From an uncultured Clostridia bacterium (GTDB lineage Bacteria; Bacillota; Clostridia; Oscillospirales; Acutalibacteraceae), in the NCBI GenBank assembly GCA_947589415.1, contig CANQBP010000001.1, forward strand, positions 1 through 64,000: a stretch of 64,000 nt of DNA, written 5' to 3'. The notes beneath the pieces are model-generated. The model was given only the letters and a program-made list of their open reading frames with translations. It searched no databases and had not been told where the DNA came from. Shown here piece after piece: positions 4,143-53,917 of the stretch. Position 1 is the first letter of the stretch, and every line of letters begins with the position of its first letter. The position numbers were made by a program, and so were the translations under genes.

Positions 4143-4184
4143 TAGACCGGCAGCACAAGTTTTCTTGTGCTGCCGGTCTATTTT
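4143..4184. terminator. Bidirectional terminator between glgB and the DUF4363 gene
   Basis: Perfect 17-bp inverted repeat (4143-4159 with 4164-4180), tetraloop TTTT, T-rich downstream flank. It separates convergent genes. Confidence 0.9.
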
Positions 4185-4284
4185 AGCATAATTCAATCGG
4201 TCTGTAATGAATACGGCAACATTTTACGGATAACGCACAATATACGATTGAAAAATCACGTATTCTTTGACAACATATATCACC

Positions 4285-4665
4285 CTATAAAATATTATTT
4301 ATTGTAGGATATTCGAGATCGTAAAAGTGCTTTATCAATATTTCGGTTTTTCGGCATTCTAATGAAAATGCTTTCAGCTCACCAAATTCTATATAGGTAT
4401 TTGCGCTGTTGAGTGACTCTTCTATCTGGTCAAGTCTGCCGTGGGAAACGAATACAAGCATTGCCTCCATTTTGCTCTCCCACTCATTGAGGGCGGATCG
4501 GATTTGCTTTTTTGCATTTTCGGAGTCACCGCTGACAGCATAATTTTCGGCAGATTCTATCTTGCCCGATACCGACTTTGATGTTGAGGTATTTATTATA
4601 AATCCGGAGATAATTATTGTAACCGTAATTATAAGAATAACCAACGCAATATATATTCTATGCAC
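4285..4665 (-). CDS. DUF4363 family membrane-anchored protein
   Basis: A 126-aa protein with one N-terminal membrane helix (residues ~5-26, rich in I/V/T) and a soluble, mostly helical extracytoplasmic part. The layout and the segment LNEWESKMEAMLVFVSHGRLDQIEESL match the DUF4363 family of spore formers, whose function is not established. The GTG start at 4665 overlaps the end of the DUF421 gene by 8 nt, and its AAGGAGGG ribosome binding site lies inside that gene. The two genes therefore form a translationally coupled pair, and the proteins probably act together in the membrane. Confidence 0.75.
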   Translation of the reverse strand: MHRIYIALVILIITVTIIISGFIINTSTSKSVSGKIESAENYAVSGDSENAKKQIRSALNEWESKMEAMLVFVSHGRLDQIEESLNSANTYIEFGELKAFSLECRKTEILIKHFYDLEYPTINNIL

Positions 4666-5341
4666 ACTTATTTCCCTCCTTTTTTATAATATTATATTTT
4701 TTCGTTTTATCGGCAGTCATAATAAAAATATCACTTATTTTAAGTTTTTCGAGTTCAAGTATCTTGTGCAGCCATTCCTCACTCAATCCGCAAAATTCAA
4801 GAGATGACTGAGCAATTTCGCCGTCACTTATGACAACCGCCTGCATATGATTGTCCTTTGCCTGTACTCCGAGCTGACCCGCTGTTACCGTATCACTTGC
4901 CGATTTTTTCAGCACACTCATTTTACCGTTGGTTTCGATTATCGCAAATGCTACATCTTTTATATCAAATACATCTTTTTGACGCAGTTCCTCAAAAAGT
5001 TCCTCGATACTCATACGCAGTTCCGTCATAGCCTTTTGATCTACCCTCCCGTCATTTATTATGATAACGGGTTTTCCGCAAATCGCCCTTCTTATTGATG
5101 AATTTTTAAGCATAAGCAGAGATATCAGTATTTCACATACAACAAGTATCAATATAGGAATTATTCCGCTCAACATAGATTGATCGGTATCCTGCATCGG
5201 TATGGAGGCAATATCAGACATAAGTAATGTAACAACAAGTTCACTTGTTTGCAGCTCACTTATTTGCCGTTTTCCCATTATCCGTACGGTTATGATGATT
5301 ATAATATACAAAAGTACTGTTCTTATAGCGGATATGATCAT
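4658..5341 (-). CDS. DUF421 (YetF-like) membrane protein
   Basis: A 227-aa protein with three predicted N-terminal membrane helices (residues ~1-20, 35-50, 58-80) and the conserved cytoplasmic DUF421/YetF domain, including GKPVIIINDGRVD, MSIEELFEELRQKDVFDIKDV and an AIIETNGKMSVLKK-like strand. DUF421 proteins of Bacillus and Clostridium are linked by earlier work to the spore inner membrane and heat resistance, for example the 2Duf protein in spoVA-type operons. Here the gene is divergent from a germinant receptor operon with only ~120 bp between, which supports a spore role by context. An AAAGGAAA ribosome binding site precedes the ATG at 5341. Confidence 0.85.
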   Translation of the reverse strand: MIISAIRTVLLYIIIIITVRIMGKRQISELQTSELVVTLLMSDIASIPMQDTDQSMLSGIIPILILVVCEILISLLMLKNSSIRRAICGKPVIIINDGRVDQKAMTELRMSIEELFEELRQKDVFDIKDVAFAIIETNGKMSVLKKSASDTVTAGQLGVQAKDNHMQAVVISDGEIAQSSLEFCGLSEEWLHKILELEKLKISDIFIMTADKTKKYNIIKKEGNKCA

Positions 5342-5464
5342 TTTTTTGTTTCCTTTCGCTGGTTCTTTAATTTATTTTGGACGTTTTAGGACGAAATATT
5401 CATATAAAATGTATAAACAGGTCATTCCCGTGGAAAATTAAAATCAAAACGGGGGTATGAAATT

Positions 5465-7012
5465 TTGTATGAATTTATTAAATCTATAAAGGAAACTTAT
5501 ATGCCTAAATCCGATTCGGATAATAAAAAGGAGGAGATAAAAACATTTTTTTATCCTCAGCTTCAAACCAATTTGGATTTTATAAGGGACAGCTTTAATA
5601 ACAGTGCTGACCTGACTATTCACGAGATGAAACTCAAGGGTATAGACGGGGCTGTTATATCCATAGATAATCTTACCGACAAGGAAGTACTCGGTGAAAG
5701 CGTTATAAAGCCTTTGCTTTCACATGACTTTTCCGGTGATGCGAAAAAGGATATAGATGATATTAAGAATAAAATGCTTTGTACCGATGATGTAAAAAAT
5801 ATAACAACGTTTGAAGAACTTTTTAAGGTAATAATGTCCGGCTTTGCCGTTATTGCACTCGACGGCTGCAATATTATGATTTCAATAGGAATACAGGGGT
5901 TCAAATCAAGGGGAATTTCAGAGCCGGAATCCGATGTTGTTCAAAGAGGTTCAAAAGAGGGTTTTGTTGAGCCTATAAGAACAAATATGGCACTTCTCAG
6001 GAGGAGAATGAAAAATCCTAAATTATATTTTGAGGTGATGACACTCGGTAATTTGACCAAGACGGAAATCTGCCTTTGCTATTTGAGGGATATAGCATCA
6101 CCGGATATTGTGACAGAACTTAAAAAAAGACTTCGGAAAATTGATATAGATACCGTGCTTGCTGCGGGATATATCGTACCGTATTTGGAGGATAAAAAAG
6201 GGGTATCGCTTTTCAGTACGGTAGGAATAACCGAGCGTTCGGACACCGTGTGCGGAAAGTTGGCGGAGGGGAGAATTGCCATATTGATAGACGGCGTACC
6301 GTCTGCACTTATAGTGCCGTATTTATTTGTGGAAAATTTTCAGACGCTTGACGATTATTCCAATAAACCGTATTTTGCTACATTCACAAGACGTCTGAAA
6401 TATGCGGCGTTTTTTATTGCAATGATGCTGCCGGGTATTTTCGTTGCTTTAGGAACATTTAATCCGGAAATGTTTCCGACTCTTATGTTGAATAAGATAG
6501 CAGGGTCAATAGGGGCAACTCCGCTGTCGCTTATGTCGGAAACCGTACTTTTACAGTTTGTATATGAAATAATGAGGGAATCGGGTTTGAGAATGCCGCA
6601 GCCGCTCGGATATGCTGTAAGTATAGTAGGAGGTCTTGTAATAGGTGATACGGCAATAAGTGCGGGGCTCATAGGTGCGCCAACACTTATGGTAGTTGCT
6701 GTTGCGATAATATGCTCATATATTATCCCGAATTTGTATGCACCCGTTGCGATACTAAGACTTGTATTTACGATTGCGGGAGGAATTTGGGGCATATGGG
6801 GAATAGCTGCCCTGTTTTGCTTTGTGTTTATAAATATATGCAGTAAATCCACATTCGGAATACCGTATACAGCTCCCCTTACGCCGATAGGAAAAGGTGC
6901 TTTGAGGGATGTATTTATAAGAGCTGATTGGAAAACGCTGTCAGATAAATCGGCAAAGGTACAAAATATGCCGGGATCTCATGTTGGCGGAGGTGCTTTG
7001 TATGAACAGTGA
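5465..7012 (+). CDS. GerA-type spore germination receptor A subunit
   Basis: A 515-aa GerAA/GerKA family protein, the A subunit of a nutrient germinant receptor in the spore inner membrane. The N-terminal ~290 residues form the soluble GerA domain (LTIHEMKLKGIDGAVISID, AILIDGVPSALIVPYLFVE), followed by a membrane bundle (~310-470) with the conserved PQPLGYAVSIVGGLVIGDTA region. The only well-placed start is TTG at 5465, with GGGGG 9 nt upstream; the ATG at 5457 is in another frame. A GTATA box at 5411 with a GGAAAATTA-like element about 16 nt downstream could be a forespore sigma promoter, but the match is weak. The gene overlaps the next by 11 nt. Confidence 0.93.
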   Translation: MYEFIKSIKETYMPKSDSDNKKEEIKTFFYPQLQTNLDFIRDSFNNSADLTIHEMKLKGIDGAVISIDNLTDKEVLGESVIKPLLSHDFSGDAKKDIDDIKNKMLCTDDVKNITTFEELFKVIMSGFAVIALDGCNIMISIGIQGFKSRGISEPESDVVQRGSKEGFVEPIRTNMALLRRRMKNPKLYFEVMTLGNLTKTEICLCYLRDIASPDIVTELKKRLRKIDIDTVLAAGYIVPYLEDKKGVSLFSTVGITERSDTVCGKLAEGRIAILIDGVPSALIVPYLFVENFQTLDDYSNKPYFATFTRRLKYAAFFIAMMLPGIFVALGTFNPEMFPTLMLNKIAGSIGATPLSLMSETVLLQFVYEIMRESGLRMPQPLGYAVSIVGGLVIGDTAISAGLIGAPTLMVVAVAIICSYIIPNLYAPVAILRLVFTIAGGIWGIWGIAALFCFVFINICSKSTFGIPYTAPLTPIGKGALRDVFIRADWKTLSDKSAKVQNMPGSHVGGGALYEQ

Positions 7013-40240: not shown

Positions 40241-40827
40241 TATATTATATTCTGCGTTTTCTTGCGTTTGTGTTTATAAGACCGTTTTACAGAATAAAGT
40301 ATATAGGCAGAGAGAATATTCCGAAAGACGGAGGTATGCTTATATGCAGTAACCACATAAGTCTTTTTGATCCGATAGCGATAGGACTCGGAGTGAAAAG
40401 AAAAATATATTTTGTGGCAAAGTCTGAATTTTTTACAAATTACGGTGCGCTTGTGCGGGGTTTTTTCAGATCCTGCGGAGTGATCCCTATAAACAGGGGA
40501 AAATCGGATACAAATGCAATATGCACGGCGGAGGAATATTTGAAAAAAGGCAGACAAATCGGAATTTTTCCGCAGGGCGGCATATCAGGGGACAGGAGGG
40601 CTTTTTCTCCTAAAGCGGGGGCTGCGCTTATTTCGGTAAGAACACATAGTCCCGTTGTTCCCGTGTCTTTATTTTCACTTGACAGGATACGCCCGTTTTG
40701 CAGGATAACGGTCAGGTTCGGAGAACCCGTATATCCGCCTAATGATAGTTCGCTCAAGGCGGCAAGACGCTTTTCCGAAGAAATAAGGGAAAGAATAATT
40801 TTTCAGTTGGGGGAAGAACATAGATGA
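40237..40827 (+). CDS. PlsC-like acyltransferase (second copy), start codon uncertain
   Basis: An acyltransferase with SNHISLFDP (HX4D), IPINRGKSD and FPQGGISGDRRAFSPKAGA (in place of the usual EGTR: QGGI), ~196 aa if counted from 40237. The frame has no ATG, GTG or TTG between 40216 and GTG at 40270, and that GTG lacks a ribosome binding site and would remove half of the first membrane helix (YYILRFLAFVFIRPFYR). AGAGGG sits 7 nt before an ATA at 40237, overlapping the stop of the previous gene as ATAG. AUA initiation, or a decayed ATGA overlap, is therefore possible. Its 3' end overlaps ispH/S1 by 4 nt. Confidence 0.75.
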   Translation: MVYYILRFLAFVFIRPFYRIKYIGRENIPKDGGMLICSNHISLFDPIAIGLGVKRKIYFVAKSEFFTNYGALVRGFFRSCGVIPINRGKSDTNAICTAEEYLKKGRQIGIFPQGGISGDRRAFSPKAGAALISVRTHSPVVPVSLFSLDRIRPFCRITVRFGEPVYPPNDSSLKAARRFSEEIRERIIFQLGEEHR

Positions 40828-42785
40828 TAAAGGTTGCTAAGACCGCAGGCTTCTGTTTTGGTGTCAGCCGAGCGGTTAGTATTGTTGAAAAACTGATAGA
40901 TGACGGGAAATCCGTATATACACTCGGCCCGATTATCCATAATTCGCAGATGGTTGAAAGCCTTGCGAAAAGGGGAGTGAAAATTGCGGAAAAGCCTGAC
41001 GATGTGAAAGACGGTTCAACTCTCGTGATACGTTCGCACGGGGTTTCGCAAAAAGTTACAGATGAGATAGCCTCACTCGGATTGAATTGTGAGGACGCCA
41101 CCTGCCCCTTTGTTTTGAAAATACATAGGATTGTGGACGAACATTCTAAACAGGGAGATATGATTTTAATTGCGGGGGACGAGGCTCACCCGGAAATTCA
41201 AGGGATAATAGGTCATTGTAAAGGGGAATACCATACCTTTAGAAATTGTGAGGAGCTTGGAGAATTATTGCTTAAATTTCCTGAATGGAAAAATAAACCC
41301 TTGTGTGTCGTTGCGCAAACTACATTTGATATAAAAGAATGGAAAAAATCTTTAAAAATGTTTCAAAAACTATGTACAAATTCCAAAATATTTGATACAA
41401 TATGTAGTGCCACCTCTGATAGGCAGTCCGAAGCGGAAGAACTTGCTTCCCAATCCGATGTAATGATAGTGATTGGAGGCAGGCACAGTTCAAATACTAA
41501 TAAATTGTATAAAATCTGTAAGAATATGTGTGAAAATACGTATCTTATCGAAACTGCTGCGGAAATACCCGTTATTGCCGGGAATAAAGCTGTCAGAGTC
41601 GGTATTACGGCCGGTGCTTCAACGCCGGCAAGCATTATAAAGGAGGTACTTGTTACCATGTCAGAAGAAATTAAAAATCCTGAAGAAAGCAAAGCTGAAA
41701 ACTTTGAGGAGCTCCTTGAGGAGTCTTTCAAAAATTATAATACAAACGGAAGGGTACACGGTGTTGTTGTAGGTGTAACTCCTACTGAGGTACGCGTTGA
41801 CGTAGGCAGAAAGCAGACCGGTATCGTACCGCTCAGCGAGCTTACAAACGATCCCAATGCAAAGACAGAGGATCTTGTCAAGGTTGGCGACGAACTTGAT
41901 CTTATCATCATGAAAACAAATGATCAGGAGGGAACTATACTTCTTTCCAAGAAAATCCTCGACTCACAAAAGGGTTGGGACGAGATCGTCAAGGCTTATG
42001 AGGAGCAGACTCCTGTTCACGGTGTTGTTACGGAAGTAATTAAGGGCGGAGTACTTGCAGTATCGAACGGCGTAAGAGTATTTATACCCGCTTCTCAAGC
42101 TACCGCAACAAGAGGAGAACCGCTTGAGGGTCTTCTTAAAAAAGAAGTTGATTTCCGCATCATTGAAACAACAGGCAGAAATAACAGAAGAAGAGCCGTA
42201 GGTTCTATTCGCTCCGTTCTCAATGACGAGCGTAAGAAAAGAGAAGAGGCATTCTGGGCTTCCGCCGAAGAAGGAAAAGTATATACCGGTGTTGTTAAAT
42301 CTCTCACATCATACGGTGCCTTTGTTGATATCGGAGGCGTTGACGGTATGGTACATATTTCGGAGCTTTCATGGAACAGAATCAAACACCCTTCAGAGGT
42401 AGTCAATGTAGGCGATACCGTCGAAGTATATGTTAAATTGCTTGACAGAGAAAAGGGAAAGATTTCACTCGGCTACAAGAAGGCTGAAGATAATCCGTGG
42501 GAAATTCTGAAAAATAAATATCCTGTCGGAACAGAAACTGAAGTAGAAATAGTAGGTCTTACACAATTTGGTGCGTTCGCAAGAATAATTCCGGGAATTG
42601 ACGGTCTTATCCATGTATCTCAAATTTCCGATCAGAGAATTGATAAGCCTGAAGATGTCCTTAGTATCGGTCAAAAGGTCAGAGTAAAAATCACGGCAAT
42701 AGATTTTGAGAAGAAGAGAATAAGCCTTTCTATCAAAGCATTGTCTGAAAACGATGCTGACGGTGATACGGACGGTCAGGATTGA
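40824..42785 (+). CDS. ispH: IspH-ribosomal protein S1 fusion
   Basis: Bifunctional 653-aa protein. Residues 1 to ~280 are IspH, the 4Fe-4S reductase giving IPP and DMAPP in the MEP pathway: Cys in TAGFCFGVSRA, RSHGV, DATCPFV and ICSATSDRQ, with TAGASTPASIIKEV near its end. Residues ~300-640 carry four S1 RNA-binding domains (GVVVGVTPTEVRVDVGRKQTG, GVVKSLTSYGAFVDIGGVDG and two more). The fusion is known in clostridia. An AGGAGG at 41641 and an in-frame ATG at 41658 lie exactly at the domain boundary and could give a free S1 protein. It starts within the plsC-like stop (ATGA). Confidence 0.93.
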   Translation: MIKVAKTAGFCFGVSRAVSIVEKLIDDGKSVYTLGPIIHNSQMVESLAKRGVKIAEKPDDVKDGSTLVIRSHGVSQKVTDEIASLGLNCEDATCPFVLKIHRIVDEHSKQGDMILIAGDEAHPEIQGIIGHCKGEYHTFRNCEELGELLLKFPEWKNKPLCVVAQTTFDIKEWKKSLKMFQKLCTNSKIFDTICSATSDRQSEAEELASQSDVMIVIGGRHSSNTNKLYKICKNMCENTYLIETAAEIPVIAGNKAVRVGITAGASTPASIIKEVLVTMSEEIKNPEESKAENFEELLEESFKNYNTNGRVHGVVVGVTPTEVRVDVGRKQTGIVPLSELTNDPNAKTEDLVKVGDELDLIIMKTNDQEGTILLSKKILDSQKGWDEIVKAYEEQTPVHGVVTEVIKGGVLAVSNGVRVFIPASQATATRGEPLEGLLKKEVDFRIIETTGRNNRRRAVGSIRSVLNDERKKREEAFWASAEEGKVYTGVVKSLTSYGAFVDIGGVDGMVHISELSWNRIKHPSEVVNVGDTVEVYVKLLDREKGKISLGYKKAEDNPWEILKNKYPVGTETEVEIVGLTQFGAFARIIPGIDGLIHVSQISDQRIDKPEDVLSIGQKVRVKITAIDFEKKRISLSIKALSENDADGDTDGQD

Positions 42786-44109: not shown

Positions 44110-44886
44110 ATGAAGATTGATGATGAAAAGAGAGAAAATGACATAATAGCCGGACGAAATCCCGTCAGCGAGGCACTGCGTTCCGGGAGAAACATAGAAT
44201 GTCTTTATATTGCAAGAGGTGAGCTTAGGGGAAGTGCAAGAGTCATAGCGGCACTTGCAAGAGAGAGGAATATTCCGATAAAGGAAGTTGACCGAAAAAA
44301 AATAGATTTTATGACTAACCATGCCTCACATCAAGGAGTGGCTGCCGTTGCGTCTGTAAAGGAATACAGCAGTATAGATGACATTTTTTTACTGGCAAAA
44401 AGCAGAAATGAAGAACCGTTTATAGTCATACTTGATGAGATAGAAGATCCGCATAATCTGGGTGCAATAATCCGAACTGCCGAATGTGCGGGAGTGCATG
44501 GTATAATCATACCGAAACGGCGGGCAGCCGGGCTAAGCGGTATTGTCGGTAAAGCAAGCGCAGGTGCGTATGAATATATGCCTGTTGCAAGGGTAACTAA
44601 TATTTCCTCCGCAATAGATGAGCTTAAAAAAATGGGTTGTTGGATATATGGGGCGGATATGGACGGACAAACGTATTGCAACAGTTCTTTGACAGGTGCT
44701 GCCGCAATCGTTATAGGTTCCGAGGGAAAGGGTTTGAGCCGCCTTGTCAGGGAAAAATGTGATATCATATTATCACTTCCGATGCTCGGAAAAATAAATT
44801 CCCTTAATGCATCGGTTGCGGCAGGGGTGCTGATATACGAGTTTACACGTCAGCGCATGAAATTAGTAGCAAAAAACGGAGGTTAA
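44110..44886 (+). CDS. rlmB: 23S rRNA (guanosine-2'-O-)-methyltransferase, TrmH/SPOUT family
   Basis: A 258-aa SpoU-type methyltransferase, probably RlmB, modifying G2251 in the 23S rRNA P-loop. It has an N-terminal substrate-binding domain (GRNPVSEALRSGRNIECLYIA) and a C-terminal trefoil-knot domain with motif 1 DEIEDPHNLGAIIRTAE, motif 2 IVIGSEGKGLSRLV and motif 3 INSLNASVAAGVLIYE. The three motifs are complete. AAGGTGAG precedes the ATG at 44110. The next gene starts 3 nt after its stop. Confidence 0.92.
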   Translation: MKIDDEKRENDIIAGRNPVSEALRSGRNIECLYIARGELRGSARVIAALARERNIPIKEVDRKKIDFMTNHASHQGVAAVASVKEYSSIDDIFLLAKSRNEEPFIVILDEIEDPHNLGAIIRTAECAGVHGIIIPKRRAAGLSGIVGKASAGAYEYMPVARVTNISSAIDELKKMGCWIYGADMDGQTYCNSSLTGAAAIVIGSEGKGLSRLVREKCDIILSLPMLGKINSLNASVAAGVLIYEFTRQRMKLVAKNGG

Positions 44887-44889
44887 ATC

Positions 44890-47800
44890 ATGTCAGACAA
44901 TAAGAAATCTCCCGATAACAATAACGACGTGTCCCCTATAAGAGGACTTTTCAGACAAAACGAAGAGGCATACAATAAACATCAGCAAAAAGTTGCGGAA
45001 GAAAAAAAACGTATTTCAGATGAATTAAATGAACAGGAGAATACGGAGAAAAGGAAACACAATGAGTCCGAAAACAACAAAGACGGAAAATCCCAAGGGA
45101 CAGAACCGCCGTTAGGCGAAAAGGTTAAGTCTTTTTTCGGTAAGATTGCCGAGATAATTACCCAGCCGGAGGACGGTGCGTTTTTTTCGGATAATAGTGA
45201 TGGCTTTGAGGATATATATTCCGATAAAGCGGAAGAAAACGGAAGTACTGCCGCAAAAAGGCATAATGATATAAAAATATCTGAAGAAAACCATGCCGCA
45301 GCAAATCCTGATGACAGTTTCAGAGTGCTGAGTGACAATAGGGTGCGGTATGACAATGAAAAAGCGGAATATAATGAGAGAGAATCGGTAATTTATCGGA
45401 AAAGTGAGGACATATCCGAACCGCCGAATAATGCTGTAAACGAGAGTGAGCAGGACGCTGCGGTTTCTTTAGGTGTGACCGATATTGTGGAGGATAATAA
45501 TAAGAAAGCAGCAGCTGCTGTTTCCGACGATAATGTTCAAAGCGGGAATGTGCAGGAGAAACTTGTCGAAAATCAAGAGGCGGACAAAACAGAAATTACA
45601 CTTGAGGCAGTTATGTACGCAAAAAATTCCGGTACGGAGGGTGTACCCGTTGCATATAATGTGAATAAGCCTAATGCGGATATTACCGAAAATAAAAGAA
45701 TGCCCGAATCAACACCCGAAAGAGAGGATGTTGTCATTTCTGCGGAAAAGGTCGCTGCAGAAAAAACTGCTGCCGAAAAAGTTGTTGCAGAAAAATCCGT
45801 TGAAGAAACGGCGGTTGAAGAAACTGCAAGTGAGCCGGTACATAATAAATTATCGGAAGATGATGAGCCGACAGCTGTTAAAAGAGTCAATGAGCTTGCA
45901 CATGATATATCGGAGGAAAATTTACCGAATAGTACTCCAAAGCGGTTCAATGAGCTTTCGCATGATGTTAATACGGAAGTGAAAGCACAGAATATTCCAA
46001 ACACCAAGAATGAACTTTCACATAATACAGATGTTGCTGCAAATGTTAATGAAAAATCGGCTGCGGCAAATATAAATAAGAAAACTGTCAAAAAAACGGA
46101 TTTTTCCGAGGGAAAAAGCGGGCCTATGGTATATCGTCGGAGCAGCAGTCCCGAATTTGTTGTTATGGCGGGAAAATTTACCAAAACACTGCGCTCGGAA
46201 TATGAGGATACCCGTCGTATAAGAGGCTGCTCTCCGGTTACTTCGGTAAAAGAAAAGGAGACAAACGAAAAGCCTGCCCGTGTCGAAAAAAAGACCCCAA
46301 AGAAAGAGAAAATACGTCCCGAAAAGGGAACTGCGGAAAAGGATACAAAAGCGTCCGATAATTCTGATGAAAATTCAAAAATACTGCCGTTGACGATACC
46401 GAAGAAAAAAAAGCATTTTCGGATAAAGGATTTGTTTTCGGCGGAGGAGGATACCTTTGACGAGGACGAAGAAGAGAATGAAGAAAAGCCGGAAATTACG
46501 GATTATAATGATAAGGACGATATTTCTGCCATAAGGAATGAAATAAATTATAATTTTCGCAATCGTTTCCTGCGTACCTGTATTTTACTCGCACTTTCAT
46601 TGGCATCACTCATAACCACATTGTTGGTTCAAATATTTCCGTCACTGTTTTTGGAAACAATAGATATCGGCTGGCTTTTATACGGATTTTTAAATTTCGC
46701 ATATGTTGCGGCGGCTGTATTTATAGAAAAATCGACAATATTCTGCGGGCTTGCACCGTTAAGACATTTTAAGGCGACAAGTGATACAGCGGTTTCGGTA
46801 GCATTGTCGGCGGCTGTTATACAATCCGTAACAGGTCTTTTCCTCCCGAATGTTTTCGTAAACGGAACATACCATATGTATTCGTTTCTTGCGATAATTG
46901 CGCTATTTTTCAATAGTGCGGGAAAATTGATGATTATAAAAAGAACTGCCGAAAATTTCAAATTTTTATGCAGTAAAAATGCAACCCATGCCGGAAAAAT
47001 ATTTACCGATAACGGTACGGCTGTAAGATTTATCTCCGGCTTGTCCGCCGACAGACCAATCATAGCTTATGCTAAAAAATCTAAGTTTATGAGCAATTTC
47101 TTACAGCTTTCGTACACTTCCGATCCTATCGAGGACAGTGCAGCCTTTTTAGCTCCGTTTGCGGCAGTAGTATCCCTTATGATCGGTGTGGTTTACGGAT
47201 TATTGGCAAATGACTTTGTCGGCGGTGTTTCCTCGTTTGCACTGTTTTCATTTGTTACGACTCCGATATGTGCGCTTATAGCTTTGAATATCCCGATAAA
47301 GAAGTTGTGTTCTTCCACACTCCGCAAGGGAGCAATGGTAGTGGGGTATGAGGCAATAAAACAATTTGGCGACACCAATGCCGTTATGATAGATTCCAAT
47401 CAGCTTTACCCGAAGGGTTGTATTACGCTTAGCGGAATAAAGGCATTTAATGAAACTAAGTTGAATACGGCACTTTTGGCAGGAGCTGCTGTCAATTTTG
47501 CGGTAGACGGGCCGATGTCGCATATTTTTGAAACGGTTATTCAAGACAGAAGAAATATGGTTCCCGTGGTGGAAAGTGTTTCATATGACGATAACCTCGG
47601 ATTGTCGGGTTGGATAGGCGGTCAGCGTGTACTGATAGGCAATCGTGGTCTTATGATAAAGCACAATATAAATGTACCCGATGAATCACTCGAAAAGAAA
47701 TACCGCAAAATGGGTAATGAAATTTCCTATATTTCTATGTCCGGTGAGCTTATTGCCATGTTCATTCTTAAATACAAAACGGACAGAAAAATAGCAAATG

Positions 47801-48228
47801 CATTGGCTATGCTGACAAAGAATAACGTTAATATCATAATAAGGACAATAGATCCGAATATAACGCAAGAACATATTTCCGAGAAATTCGGCATATTGCA
47901 GCGTTGTGTGAAGGTACTCAATACCGGTCTTGGAAATGTTTGCCACGAAGAACTTCAATCTTCGGAAAACCGTACACGAGCATATGTTGTAACAGACGGA
48001 AGTCTGACGGCGTTTGCATCGGCAATTTGCGGCAGTATAGAAGTGAAACCGACCGTTACCATAGCAAAAGTAATGCAAATTTTAACCGTGACTTTGGGAT
48101 TGGTATTTTTCGGAGTCATTTGCTTTGTTTCCGGTTTTGCGGAACTTAGCGGTTTAGCGGTTATGTGTTGGGCAGGTTTTTGGGGACTGGCTTTGATAAT
48201 TATATCTATCTTTGCAAGAAAAGCCTGA
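44890..48228 (+). CDS. Pseudo P1B-type ATPase with long disordered N-terminus
   Basis: 1112 aa in two parts. Residues 1 to ~550 are highly charged, low-complexity and rich in E, K, N, D, with A/E/K repeats (AEKVAAEKTAAEKVVAEKS) and three NELxHD/N-like motifs; no fold is expected. Residues ~556-1112 have the layout of a heavy-metal P-type ATPase: membrane pairs, a TPIC segment where CPC stands in transporters, the phosphorylation loop, and the N-domain-like GLSGWIGGQRVLIGNRGLM. But the DKTGTLT motif reads DSNQLYP (Asp835 kept, the rest lost), and no GDGxNDxPAL hinge is seen (nearest TDGSLTAF). Ion pumping is therefore unlikely. GGAGG precedes the ATG, 3 nt after rlmB. Confidence 0.78.
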   Translation: MSDNKKSPDNNNDVSPIRGLFRQNEEAYNKHQQKVAEEKKRISDELNEQENTEKRKHNESENNKDGKSQGTEPPLGEKVKSFFGKIAEIITQPEDGAFFSDNSDGFEDIYSDKAEENGSTAAKRHNDIKISEENHAAANPDDSFRVLSDNRVRYDNEKAEYNERESVIYRKSEDISEPPNNAVNESEQDAAVSLGVTDIVEDNNKKAAAAVSDDNVQSGNVQEKLVENQEADKTEITLEAVMYAKNSGTEGVPVAYNVNKPNADITENKRMPESTPEREDVVISAEKVAAEKTAAEKVVAEKSVEETAVEETASEPVHNKLSEDDEPTAVKRVNELAHDISEENLPNSTPKRFNELSHDVNTEVKAQNIPNTKNELSHNTDVAANVNEKSAAANINKKTVKKTDFSEGKSGPMVYRRSSSPEFVVMAGKFTKTLRSEYEDTRRIRGCSPVTSVKEKETNEKPARVEKKTPKKEKIRPEKGTAEKDTKASDNSDENSKILPLTIPKKKKHFRIKDLFSAEEDTFDEDEEENEEKPEITDYNDKDDISAIRNEINYNFRNRFLRTCILLALSLASLITTLLVQIFPSLFLETIDIGWLLYGFLNFAYVAAAVFIEKSTIFCGLAPLRHFKATSDTAVSVALSAAVIQSVTGLFLPNVFVNGTYHMYSFLAIIALFFNSAGKLMIIKRTAENFKFLCSKNATHAGKIFTDNGTAVRFISGLSADRPIIAYAKKSKFMSNFLQLSYTSDPIEDSAAFLAPFAAVVSLMIGVVYGLLANDFVGGVSSFALFSFVTTPICALIALNIPIKKLCSSTLRKGAMVVGYEAIKQFGDTNAVMIDSNQLYPKGCITLSGIKAFNETKLNTALLAGAAVNFAVDGPMSHIFETVIQDRRNMVPVVESVSYDDNLGLSGWIGGQRVLIGNRGLMIKHNINVPDESLEKKYRKMGNEISYISMSGELIAMFILKYKTDRKIANALAMLTKNNVNIIIRTIDPNITQEHISEKFGILQRCVKVLNTGLGNVCHEELQSSENRTRAYVVTDGSLTAFASAICGSIEVKPTVTIAKVMQILTVTLGLVFFGVICFVSGFAELSGLAVMCWAGFWGLALIIISIFARKA

Positions 48229-48263: not shown

Positions 48264-48914
48264 ATGAAAGTAGCTCCGTCACTGCTTAGTTGTGATTTTG
48301 CGAAAATGGGTGAGGAGATCATGATGATAGATAAGGCAGGGGCTGATTTAATACATCTTGATGTAATGGACGGACATTTTGTTCCTAATATTACTATTGG
48401 CCCTGCGATAATAAAAGCCGTACGCCCATATACTGATCTTCCGTTTGATGTTCACCTTATGATTGACTACCCGCTTGATTATATAGATGCTTTTGCAGAT
48501 GCGGGTGCAGACATAATAACGTTCCACCTTGAATCAATGTCCGATCCCTGTATGACGATCGACAAAATAAAAAGTCGTGGTATAAAGGCGGGAGTAGTGA
48601 TAAAGCCGAATACCCCGGCGCAGGCAGTTTATCCCTATCTTGACAAGGTATATATGGTGCTTGTGATGACGGTCGAGCCGGGTTTCGGGGGACAGTCATT
48701 TATGGAGGATATGATGCCGAAAGTCAGTGCAATAAAGCATGAAGCCGAACAAAGAGGTCTTGATGTACTTATAGAGGCAGATGGCGGAATATCGGATAAG
48801 ACTGTATTATCTGCGGCTAAGGCAGGAGTTGATATTGTTGTTTCGGGAACAGGAGTTTTTAAGGCGGAAGATCCGTCTAAAGCAATAGAATTTCTGAAAA
48901 ATTCGGATAAGTAA
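48264..48914 (+). CDS. rpe: Ribulose-phosphate 3-epimerase
   Basis: Interconverts ribulose 5-phosphate and xylulose 5-phosphate in the pentose phosphate pathway; 216 aa TIM barrel. SLLSCDFAKMGEE, HLDVMDGHFVPNITIGP (metal His and Asp), DVHLMIDYP, VMTVEPGFGGQSF and EADGGISDKT are all intact. AAAGGAAGGA precedes the ATG at 48264. It lies 35 nt after the pseudo-ATPase gene. The string rlmB-(other)-rpe may be one transcript ending at the 48930 terminator. Confidence 0.96.
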   Translation: MKVAPSLLSCDFAKMGEEIMMIDKAGADLIHLDVMDGHFVPNITIGPAIIKAVRPYTDLPFDVHLMIDYPLDYIDAFADAGADIITFHLESMSDPCMTIDKIKSRGIKAGVVIKPNTPAQAVYPYLDKVYMVLVMTVEPGFGGQSFMEDMMPKVSAIKHEAEQRGLDVLIEADGGISDKTVLSAAKAGVDIVVSGTGVFKAEDPSKAIEFLKNSDK

Positions 48915-48986: not shown

Positions 48987-49550
48987 TCAGAGCATAGCTT
49001 TGCCGACAAGCTCCAAAGCATTTTCGGCTGCGAGTACGGTACATTTTTCCTTTAGGGCAGAACAGGTGATTTTCCCCGTCTGAACGGAATTAGCGTATTC
49101 TCTTGTTATCCTCATAAAACGATCGCTCGGTATAGAATTACCGAGTATCAGATAATAATTACGGCTGTCAAAAAGAATGCTGCTTTTCCTGCTCCTTTCA
49201 TTTGCAATATATAATTGTTCTATACATGACAACATTTCCTCGGCATCGGTAAAACGAAAGGCATAACTGTTGCTTCGGCTTTTTATGCTGTAAACCTTTC
49301 TTTTATGTCTGCTTACGACCGTAACAAGAAGAATACAGCCGCGGTCATATTTCATTGCTTCAATCATAAGTTTTCTTCCGTTTAGTTTCATGCCCGTTTT
49401 GCTTTCGGCACGGATAAGAAGCTCCTGTATCACTCTCTTAGATTGATTGTCCGCAAAGCTGAGTCCTTCATATGTCAAATTATATTCTTCAAGCTCCTTG
49501 TCACATAGTGATATAAGCAGCTTTTCGGAATTTATCTTCTCAATATTCAT
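48987..49550 (-). CDS. mecA: MecA-like adaptor protein
   Basis: A 187-aa protein resembling the ClpC adaptor MecA/YpbH. The N-terminal domain NIEKINSEKLLISLCDKELEEYNLT is the typical MecA target-binding start, and LIEAMKYDRGCILLVT followed by a C-terminal domain with FRFTDAEEMLSCIEQL fits the ClpC-binding part. It should feed target proteins to ClpCP. The ATG at 49550 is chosen because GGAGG lies 8 nt ahead; a frame 8 codons longer has no ribosome binding site. It is monocistronic and convergent with rpe. Confidence 0.82.
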   Translation of the reverse strand: MNIEKINSEKLLISLCDKELEEYNLTYEGLSFADNQSKRVIQELLIRAESKTGMKLNGRKLMIEAMKYDRGCILLVTVVSRHKRKVYSIKSRSNSYAFRFTDAEEMLSCIEQLYIANERSRKSSILFDSRNYYLILGNSIPSDRFMRITREYANSVQTGKITCSALKEKCTVLAAENALELVGKAML

Positions 49551-50041
49551 GTTCTCTGCCTCCGAAATACACAAAGCAACTGTTCCGCTTTGCTATAATA
49601 TCTTCTATATTACATAATATTAAATCAAGAGAGATTTTGCAATCGGAAAGTTATGGAGAATATACATAATATTCCATGTGTCAATACGCACAATACTGTC
49701 AAAAGGGAATGTATATATATATCGGGAATTTTAGGATCATTTTATGGGTCATGTGTGATCAAAATTTATTCTGTATTTTGAATTTTAACAAAAAAATGTA
49801 CAATATAGATAAATATGTTCTGATAAATTTCAAAATTTAGATAAATTTATCGAATATCTCTGTACAAACTTATAAAAAGTGTGTATAATGATACTTGTAT
49901 GATTTGTTAAATACAGTTTATGCCTATGTTTTAATTTTCGTAATTTGCCGAACATAAAAAGAATATTTGAGCGGGTCGGAAATATCCGGACAGAACACGG
50001 TGGTATTTACATTAGCAGACTCGCAGCAGGGAGTGAACTTT
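49551..50041. other. 491-bp AT-rich intergenic region between mecA and the signalling gene
   Basis: No gene seen. A promoter-like TGTACA (49861) - 17 nt - TATAAT (49884-49889) faces the signalling gene, giving a leader of about 150 nt. Short palindromic stretches (GATCA...TGATC near 49735-49763; AGATAAATTTATC near 49839) are present without known function. Confidence 0.45.
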
Positions 50042-53000
50042 ATGAAAAAAATGCTTGTAGCAGATAATTCTGAAATGAACAAATCTATTATTCATGAAAT
50101 TTTTTCTTCACAATATGAAATAAAGGAAACCGCAAGCAGCGAAAACGTATTCAAAATTCTTATGCAAAATAAGAACGATATTTCCATAGTTTTGATAAAT
50201 GAGACCGTTGCGAATAATTTCAGTAAAGACGCCGTGCGCACATTATCGAATATGGAAGTTTTCAGAAATGTACCCGTGATATTGATACTTGAGGGTGAAC
50301 TTTCTCAAAGATCAAAGGCTATGAATATAGATTTTCCGTATTGTGATGTTATAACATCACCTGTAAATCCGTATATAATACGCAAACGTGTAACGAATCT
50401 TGTTGAACTATACTCACATCAAAACGAACTTGAGGACAGAGTGGAACAACAAACGGCAAGAATACTGATACAAAATCAGGCACTAAGACTGCAGGAACGT
50501 AAAATAAGCACAATAAACAATGATATGCTTGATACGTTGAGTACGGTTATAGAATACCGTGACGTTGAATCGGGTCGGCATATACATAGAATAAAAAAAT
50601 TCACAAAAGTAATGCTTGGGGCACTTGCGCAGAGATATCCCGAATATAATATGACAAGAGAAAAAATAGAAATGATATCGTCTGCTTCCGCCCTGCATGA
50701 TATCGGTAAGATTGCAATACCCGACTCTATTTTGCTTAGTCCGAGAAGGCTGACATATGAAGAATTCAGTATAATGAAAACACACACGATAAAGGGTTGT
50801 GAGCTTTTAAATCATTTGGACAGTGTCGAGAAAAATGAGTATTTTACATATTGCTATGATATATGCAGATATCACCATGAAAAGTATGACGGAAAAGGTT
50901 ATCCCGATGGTCTTGTCGGAGATCAAATACCGATATGGGCACAGGTTGTTTCTGTTGCGGACTGCTATGATGCACTTACAAGCGAACGTTCGTATAAATC
51001 AGCGCTTACGCATGAACAGGCAGTTGAAATGATGAGATCGGGTGCCTGCGGCGCATTCTCGGATAAAATGATGAATTGTTTTACAATGGTGCTTTCGGAT
51101 TTCAAAGCACTTGCCGAGGAATATGCCGACGAAAAACAGGTTGACCATTCGATAAATGATTTTGCCGAAGAACCTTTCAGTATAGGCTATGATAGCGGCA
51201 GGAGCAGCGAGCTTTACAAGAGTATGGACAGAAAAGAGCTTATCCGTACCATAGAAAATCAAAAGGAACAAATGCTTAAAAACCAAAAAAGTTCTTTTGA
51301 AATACTAAATAAAGTTTCCGATTTCTTATTTGAATTTGATATTAAAAACGAAGTGACAAGTGAATGTAAGGGTGAGTTTAAAAAATTGTTCGGATATTGT
51401 CCGAAGAATTATTCCGAAGCCGTTATGCTTTTTTCCGAATTGTGTTCCGATGAATTTAAAGGCAGGTTTGGGCGTACTTTCAGGTTTGAAAATATTGCGG
51501 ACGAGATAAAAAAAGGCAGCGACAGAATAGTACTTGAGTGTCCGATGTGTCTTGACGGTAAGTCTGATTCGTTTGTCAGATGTACGGCAATACCCTTGAC
51601 GGAAAATGATGAAATAGAAAAAATATATATGAGCCTTGAATTGCTTAAATGTAGGGATACGTTAAACTCAAACAACGAATTGGAGTACTATTCGCATAGA
51701 GATCCCGTTACGGGTTTGAGGGACTTTAACGGTCTTAAAGATGAAATAGACGATTATATTAAACACACCGGAAAAAGCGGCTCACATCTTTTCGCACTTA
51801 TAGATATTGACGGTTTCGGAACGATAAACCGACGAACAGGATACAGTTTCGGAGATGAGATATTGAGCGATATAGCAAATATACTCAAGGATTATCTCAA
51901 AAGCAGCAATATAACAGGCAGAGCAAAAGATGATCGTTTTGTAGTGTTTGTCAAGGATTGCGCAAGTATGAAAGAAAACATACAAATGGTGAATACGCTA
52001 TTTAAAAAGCTGCACAAAAAATATATTTTTGAAGATAAAAGCTGTCACGAAATATCTGTATGTATAGGTGTTTCTCTATATCCCGAAAACGGCGGTAATT
52101 TTGATGAACTTTTCGCTGCCTCGGAGAAAGCAATCGACCATGCCAAGATAAACGGAAAAAATATGTATCTGTTTTATAATGAAAATATGAGGGATATATG
52201 GAATATCACTTCTTATCAAAAGAAAGAACTTGATGTAACGGAAAAAAATGATGTTTCATATGAAAGTCTTTTCATTCCCGTGAGGGATTCGGTAGGACAA
52301 AGGGTCATGACTTATGAGATGATAGAAACGGCGTCGGGATATGACGAAGATTTCGACTTTGATGAAATATACTCCGCATTGTATTATCATTCCGAAAGTA
52401 TAACGGCATACAGTCTTGACAGCTTGAGAAGAATGTTTGAAAAGATCTATAAATTTGAGAAAAGCGGACATTCTATGCCGAAAATAACGATTATGACTAT
52501 GTTCAGAGGGGAAGATTATGAAGTAGTCATAAAGGCTTTTGATGAAATGCTGTTGTATTACCCCGTTACGTGCAGAAACATATGTATAAGTATAACACAT
52601 GATATGCTTGAGGCTATGGATATGAGGCAGACGGTAAAGTTTGTGGATTATCTTGTCAGCAGAGGTTTTTCGGTGGGAGTCTATAATGTCGGATTGACGG
52701 GTATAAATACCAAATGTTTTATTAACGGACTTTTCGGCACTGTAATGTTTGCCCGTTCCTTTCTTGACGATGTAGACGGCGGGATTGTGCCGCTAAGCAC
52801 ACTTTTGTACCTGCTCGACTGTTTTAAAAGCACCAATACACAAGTTTTGATGCCCATAAATGTAAGTGAGGAGGTATTGGAGCAGGTCAAACAAAAAACA
52901 GATGTTGTGTTCGGAATACATGAAAAGAGATACCTTGATATTGACAGTCTTGAAAATGATGCAGGTTCCGATGTTATGACTTCGCAGATAAAAGCACTTG

Positions 53001-53917
53001 ATTACAGTAATAATTCTCTCGTTGCCAATGAGAAGCTGTATAACGAAATACTCATACAGACAAAGTCGTTTATTATGGAGTGGATACCGAGAACTGACTG
53101 CATAAAAATTTCAAGCTCATTTCAAACCTTGTACGGATATGTTCCCGATGAATTTGATTTTGTTAAAAATATAAGAAGCAATCCTTTCATACATTCAGAT
53201 GATATCAGGAAATTTATTGAAAAACTGAATTTGTCAAGATCGGGTCAAAACGAATCGGAGTGTCTTATAAGGGTTTACAATCACAACATAGATAAGTATG
53301 TGTGGAACAGGGTACGTTTTGCCGCTGCAAGAAATGCGGCGGGGATTGCCTCAAAAATTTTAGTGGTGTTTGCCGATATTTCCGATGAAAAAGATTCCTA
53401 TACCGACGACACGGCAAGAAGAGATCGCACGGACTATATAACAAAATTATACAACCGTTCGGCAAGTGAGAATAAGATAAAAACATATCTGTACGGTGAC
53501 GGGGCAGCACTTCCGAATTCTCTTGTTATGGTGGAAATATGCGGTTTCGAGGAATTGGAAAAATCACTGGGTAAGGTTTTTGCAAATGCTGTTCTCAAAG
53601 AGATTGCCTCCAATATACGTGAGCTGTTTAGCGATTACGATATAGTGGGAAGAATAAGCGGCGCAAAGTTTGTGGTATTCATAAAGGGAATAAATAACAG
53701 AGAAATACTTGAATTAAAGGCAAAACAGATATGCGTTGCCGTAAGACATACCTATGAAACGGATAACGGAAACATCATGATTTATGCTAAACTCGGAATA
53801 GGCACCTACCCGAACAGCGGGAGATCCTATGATGAGCTTTATGAGGCTGCCGGTAATGCCCTTTATTATGCCAAACATAGCGTTGCAAAGGATTACTCAA
53901 TAGATATAAGTAAGTAA
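50042..53917 (+). CDS. HD-GYP signalling protein with degenerate REC, GGDEF and EAL domains
   Basis: A cytoplasmic 1291-aa protein. Domains in order (approximate residues): receiver-like (1-120), HD-GYP (150-360) with HDIGKIAIPD, HHEKYDGKGYPDG and ADCYDALTSERSYK intact, PAS (~425-530), GGDEF-like (553-710) with KDDRF in place of GGDEF, EAL-like (740-970) with YEMIETASG where EAL-x-R is expected, PAS (~1006-1115), and a second GGDEF-like domain (1130-1290) with SGAKF. Only the HD-GYP part looks able to act, as a cyclic dinucleotide phosphodiesterase; the others may bind nucleotide. AGGGAG lies 8 nt before the ATG at 50042; 25 upstream in-frame codons are rejected. Confidence 0.88.
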   Translation: MKKMLVADNSEMNKSIIHEIFSSQYEIKETASSENVFKILMQNKNDISIVLINETVANNFSKDAVRTLSNMEVFRNVPVILILEGELSQRSKAMNIDFPYCDVITSPVNPYIIRKRVTNLVELYSHQNELEDRVEQQTARILIQNQALRLQERKISTINNDMLDTLSTVIEYRDVESGRHIHRIKKFTKVMLGALAQRYPEYNMTREKIEMISSASALHDIGKIAIPDSILLSPRRLTYEEFSIMKTHTIKGCELLNHLDSVEKNEYFTYCYDICRYHHEKYDGKGYPDGLVGDQIPIWAQVVSVADCYDALTSERSYKSALTHEQAVEMMRSGACGAFSDKMMNCFTMVLSDFKALAEEYADEKQVDHSINDFAEEPFSIGYDSGRSSELYKSMDRKELIRTIENQKEQMLKNQKSSFEILNKVSDFLFEFDIKNEVTSECKGEFKKLFGYCPKNYSEAVMLFSELCSDEFKGRFGRTFRFENIADEIKKGSDRIVLECPMCLDGKSDSFVRCTAIPLTENDEIEKIYMSLELLKCRDTLNSNNELEYYSHRDPVTGLRDFNGLKDEIDDYIKHTGKSGSHLFALIDIDGFGTINRRTGYSFGDEILSDIANILKDYLKSSNITGRAKDDRFVVFVKDCASMKENIQMVNTLFKKLHKKYIFEDKSCHEISVCIGVSLYPENGGNFDELFAASEKAIDHAKINGKNMYLFYNENMRDIWNITSYQKKELDVTEKNDVSYESLFIPVRDSVGQRVMTYEMIETASGYDEDFDFDEIYSALYYHSESITAYSLDSLRRMFEKIYKFEKSGHSMPKITIMTMFRGEDYEVVIKAFDEMLLYYPVTCRNICISITHDMLEAMDMRQTVKFVDYLVSRGFSVGVYNVGLTGINTKCFINGLFGTVMFARSFLDDVDGGIVPLSTLLYLLDCFKSTNTQVLMPINVSEEVLEQVKQKTDVVFGIHEKRYLDIDSLENDAGSDVMTSQIKALDYSNNSLVANEKLYNEILIQTKSFIMEWIPRTDCIKISSSFQTLYGYVPDEFDFVKNIRSNPFIHSDDIRKFIEKLNLSRSGQNESECLIRVYNHNIDKYVWNRVRFAAARNAAGIASKILVVFADISDEKDSYTDDTARRDRTDYITKLYNRSASENKIKTYLYGDGAALPNSLVMVEICGFEELEKSLGKVFANAVLKEIASNIRELFSDYDIVGRISGAKFVVFIKGINNREILELKAKQICVAVRHTYETDNGNIMIYAKLGIGTYPNSGRSYDELYEAAGNALYYAKHSVAKDYSIDISK

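Follow-up and report, generated by a model that had tools for sequence, protein, structure and literature searches.

The 64,000-nucleotide stretch of DNA analyzed here (the window), from an uncultured Clostridia bacterium, carries on its forward strand a gut-bacterium gene with an open reading frame (ORF; 44890..48228, +) encoding a protein of 1112 residues. We find that this protein is very likely a pseudo-P1B-ATPase, in which the CopA-type fold is whole and the ATP-driven cycle has been dismantled. By composition, residues 1-547 (44890..46530, +) form a charged N-terminal arm. The remainder, residues 548-1112 (46531..48225, +), is a P1B-ATPase-like core that has the 8-helix membrane part (as predicted) and the A, P, and N regions, the A domain being reduced to a shrunken remnant without TGES (residues about 694-753; 46969..47148, +). 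A Pfam-A search of the whole protein gave no meaningful match. NCBIfam gave weak but significant matches to CopA (7.2e-13, residues 807-1041) and to heavy-metal ATPases (3.2e-11, residues 749-1004), both far below cut-off; for TIGR01525, the score was 42.8 bits against a curated cut-off of 346.25. The closest PDB sequence relative was LpCopA (6.9e-9). Thus, the P-type similarity that a sequence-only reading of this DNA had placed in the C-terminal half was borne out by profile search, fold, and helices.

The same reading had described a broken DKTGT motif and a missing GDGxND hinge, and both hold for the window protein. Sequence comparison places DSNQLYP (residues 835-841; 47392..47412, +) where DKTGT is expected, and the profile alignment leaves a gap (47974..47979, +) where active pumps carry the GDGxND segment of about 27 residues. 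To count motifs across the family, we used 106 distinct cores, including a few partial ones, leaving out by locus number 19 true pumps from outside loci (161-206 bits on the local model). None of the 106 has DKTGT with its phosphorylated Asp, the nucleotide motif SEHP, CPC, or the CPx metal motif of the sixth helix, a site whose proline is retained in 31 of 40 rows. The dephosphorylation motif TGE is missing from the A region of every core, its sole occurrence lying elsewhere (L063, position 342), and no core has GDGxND in place, the sole GDGxxD string being misplaced (L120, position 305). Each of the 22 outside loci from the class search (L082-L103) has an ORF bearing DKTGT and GDGxND, one of these ORFs being truncated and without TGE. 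Known pumps need these motifs to use ATP, and loss of the pump cycle in this family is very likely. Because the orthologues too have a P1B body without catalytic motifs, the protein neither lacks similarity to P-type ATPases nor shows simple decay in one strain.

The former phosphorylation site has been remodeled and then maintained rather than allowed to drift, because conserved motifs occur there at both order and genus level and a D-x-N-I-T remnant is retained. Among 31 order-level rows, 25 read Dx[DE] (DxD in 18) and 29 have F or Y. In the nine rows of the genus, position 835 is D or E, S836 and Q838 predominate, and Y-P is invariant; Dx[DE], checked as HAD motif I, is found in none of these rows, the window included. 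Another 54 named cores have the same kind of motif at this site. The remnant of the TGD motif is TIDPNIT in the window protein (residues 986-992; 47845..47865, +; sequence comparison), with D988 in 39/40 rows and N990 in 35/40. A dN of 0.20 against a dS of 1.49 between the window and L002 agrees with the site being held; here dS is near saturation, and it was undefined in three of five window comparisons.

The family is widespread in the sampled order, which we take to be GTDB Oscillospirales. About 241 of 247 order genomes (134 genera) had a best E-value of 5e-55 or lower, and six weaker ones, picked out by eye, ranged from 5e-33 to 6e-20 (G342, G086, G307, G330, G365, G463). In the class sample, 8 genomes of the order scored 319 to 666 bits, and the 188 others, matching part of the model, did not exceed 130.5 bits; in the phylum sample, 2 of 199 genomes matched below 1e-40, both within the order. 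The first search, made with the window core alone, found a match in 92 of 99 near genomes, true pumps counted in. Relatives carrying names are mostly uncultured Ruminococcus and Clostridia, besides Pseudoruminococcus massiliensis and Provencibacterium. Nearly all relatives among the matches listed have an uninterrupted frame. Separately, a stop codon splits the family gene in one genome each at L031 (4754-4756) and L152 (within 4145-5842), for which recoding, error, or decay may account. The core is not covered by any Pfam or NCBIfam family: at most 1 of 40 members matched any Pfam model at 0.01, and the NCBIfam models matching these members were, bar one stray match, P-type pump models, each in at most 27/40 and below cut-off for the window. 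Kept by nearly all sampled genomes of the order, the family protein is a candidate marker for it.

The arm, predicted from its composition to be disordered, is far more variable. The sequence-only reading had noted an arm of about 550 residues; such an arm is present here, but it is not a family-wide trait, since arm lengths span 17 to more than 1,000 residues. Short motifs nevertheless recur within it. FEDIYS (residues 106-111; 45205..45222, +) is retained in the four nearest relatives (L129, L130, L131, L174) and is possibly the local form of an order-level Phi-[DE]-[DE]-I-L motif. Sequence patterns further mark a NEL[SA]H repeat that occurs three times at a spacing of 20 residues (residues 334-378; 45889..46023, +) and an AGKFxxxLRxEY motif (residues 427-438; 46168..46203, +); an AGKFxxxLxxEY-like motif is found in 30 of 32 arms of at least 400 residues from the genus and its kin. 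Many order-level arms carry, close to the N-terminus, [FY]S[LI][DE]DILxE, whose strict form occurs in 21 of 101 arms longer than 60 residues (genus included) and in no arm of the window's genus. A first, narrower pattern had no matches. A looser form is present in 16 of 31 order-level arms, compared with a mean of 0.1 after shuffling, a contrast that is descriptive, as the looser patterns were picked after inspecting the arms. As a DNA pattern in 147 genomes, the strict motif gave 31 matches versus 3 for a backwards control. Thirty of these were turned into loci (the third match in G345 was left out): 21 lie in recognized family ORFs, 8 elsewhere, and one, L190, cut by a contig end, is family-like. 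Such motif islands in variable charged sequence would give the arm the look of a docking arm.

One of the eight non-family matches (L199; G337:C5 near 91318) is a signal peptidase II whose long C-terminal tail ends in YSLEDILAEF, a motif shared with the family arms. Across 50 loci for this enzyme, comprising 49 genes and not including G337, a simple tail pattern gave no second case, and the idea of a general, shared hub motif was therefore dropped.

The most constant companion of the gene is the ribosome-modifying gene rlmB (44110..44886, +; locus comparison). Of 34 order-wide loci, 31 have it immediately upstream of the family gene in the same orientation; another, L031, has it before the split gene. 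It was also upstream in 24/24 further loci with enough sequence (8 more were too short) and in 35/37 named loci (20 more too short), the two without it being L132 and L167; the three sets share some genomes. In 90 loci with the pair, the intergenic gap had a median of 18 nt, was 60 nt or less in 64, and became an overlap in 12; an ATG with a Shine-Dalgarno-like sequence was present in 79. Of the cotranscription with rlmB and rpe claimed by the sequence-only reading, the rlmB linkage is real and order-wide, whereas rpe (48264..48914, +; locus comparison) is a downstream partner in the genus and near kin only (50/54 named loci, 2/30 in a mixed set, 0/32 order-wide). No metal-handling gene was found among the few neighbors named.

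A paralogue of elongation factor G (EF-G) is a further neighbor in part of the order. Eight of the 34 order-wide loci (L031, L040, L050, L052, L054, L062, L063, L065) have it downstream of the family gene in the same orientation, at distances of 39 to 373 nt. Among the matches listed, it is within 2.5 kb of the family gene in 29 of 87 genomes and within 500 nt in 26, strand being left out of this comparison; the 29 genomes span seven families. About 129 of 147 order genomes have the paralogue (by eye, over 560 bits). The G3 histidine of EF-G is needed for GTPase action. In all eight paralogues compared at this site, this residue is lost, DxPG being followed by M, N, Y, or F, and the P-loop is kept; the window's housekeeping EF-G reads DTPGH. 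The L040 paralogue exceeds the NF009381 cut-off and falls short of the one set for the Bacteroides EF-G2 model.

Other neighbors vary. A SpoIID/LytB-domain protein gene lies downstream of the family gene in L041 and its homologue L042, and a Lon protease gene follows it in L044. In the window, 48987-49574 (-), which faces the operon, weakly matches the genetic competence negative regulator model NF002781 (3.9e-5). By eye, the 1316-residue ORF with a TTG start at 49967-53917 (+) resembles a response-regulator, HD-GYP, GGDEF, and PAS signaling protein, and the 653-residue ORF at 40824-42785 (+) an IspH (LytB) fused to ribosomal S1 domains.

Taken together, we favor the account of a dismantled CopA-type pump that would serve as a membrane receptor or platform with a docking arm, and assign it a probability of roughly 55%. 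The protein has probably acquired a non-pumping job. The core would sit in the membrane as receptor or platform, the remodeled phosphorylation site may bind a ligand, and the arm would dock cytosolic partners through its short motifs. A docking or sensing role is somewhat better than an even bet, and we likewise infer, with the sequence-only reading, that the protein may be a sensor, a scaffold, or a ligand-binding protein. With rlmB in most loci and the His-less EF-G paralogue nearby in a third of the genomes compared, the gene's surroundings hint at translation or ribosome state, not metal export, as the partner process; a link to translation is possible. The fuller scheme, in which an order-specific pseudo-pump has been recruited to translation control, its remodeled P domain reading ion or nucleotide state and its arm gathering ribosome-linked factors such as the EF-G paralogue at the membrane, is speculative and rather unlikely.

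Several observations weigh against this account. The first search left seven of the 99 near genomes without a match; most are incomplete, and three are congeneric (G029, G040, G043). The window's genus has neither Dx[DE] (mostly S-x-Q instead) nor the strict order-level arm motif, and a motif-based mechanism is therefore not simply transferable to the window protein. Some family members are practically armless; since the arm is so variable, the family is defined by its core, not by its arm. The EF-G paralogue is non-adjacent in 58 of the 87 genomes, including the window's own, where it is on a different contig. Finally, a conserved gene order may stem from nothing more than shared expression.

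Among other explanations, the least improbable, though still unlikely, has the protein acting as a regulatory partner to the active P1B pumps of its genome, for instance in heteromers with CopA. The window's genome has two full P1B pumps besides, both over the TIGR01525 cut-off, and the top-scoring outside relatives are CPC-type pumps; the family gene, however, stays with rlmB, and the few named neighbors include no metal-homeostasis gene. We consider it improbable that the P domain has become a HAD-like DxD site shifted by one residue relative to DKTGT, making the protein a phosphatase or an unconventional ATPase. The order-level Dx[DE] and the retained D988 and N990 would suit such a site, but SEHP is lost, the segment of the acidic motif IV (GDGxND) is gapped in the profile alignment, lysine is not among the frequent residues where the motif III lysine aligns, and D836 occurs in 0/9 genus rows.

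A role in sporulation is just as improbable. Spo0A was found in 234 of 247 order genomes, and the SpoIID/LytB-domain gene adjoins the family gene in two loci, but the family is kept in 13/13 genomes without a Spo0A match (compared by eye), and the gene therefore appears not to depend on sporulation. Decay of a pseudogene in the window's strain, to which the broken motifs might have pointed, is refuted by conservation across the order: nearly all relatives listed have an uninterrupted frame, dN falls far short of dS, and none of the 106 cores has DKTGT.

With CopA-type P1B-ATPases (LpCopA 3rfu/4bbj, ATP7B), the family of this dismantled pump shares the whole fold, the eight membrane helices, and the order of P and N regions. 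It differs from them in lacking DKTGT, TGES, GDGxND, CPC, and SEHP, in its shrunken A domain, and in its charged arm, at whose place CopA-type pumps often carry metal-binding domains. KdpB, a P1A-ATPase, differs in being the catalytic subunit of a complex. Pseudokinases and pseudoproteases are already familiar, and an order-wide pseudo-pump, usually with one gene partner, is well suited to exploring what such a fold can do once it no longer pumps. Titles and abstract openings of the literature searched, a set outside which most subscription papers fall, mention no pseudo-P-type ATPase family, nor do the word-search passages of a review of open P-type ATPase questions (PMC10654040). Bacteroides EF-G2, described in excerpts of PMC10294740 as enabling GTP-independent translation, is an analogue of the neighboring paralogue, not of the pseudo-pump, the likeness being that of a putative alternative EF-G. 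The P4-ATPase-like domain of apicomplexan guanylyl cyclase, as portrayed in excerpts of PMC7858053 and PMC6592433, places a P-type body in signaling and serves as a works-like comparison only. This system differs in being eukaryotic, of P4 type, and cyclase-fused, and the activity of its ATPase domain is called essential in the title of PMC7858053.
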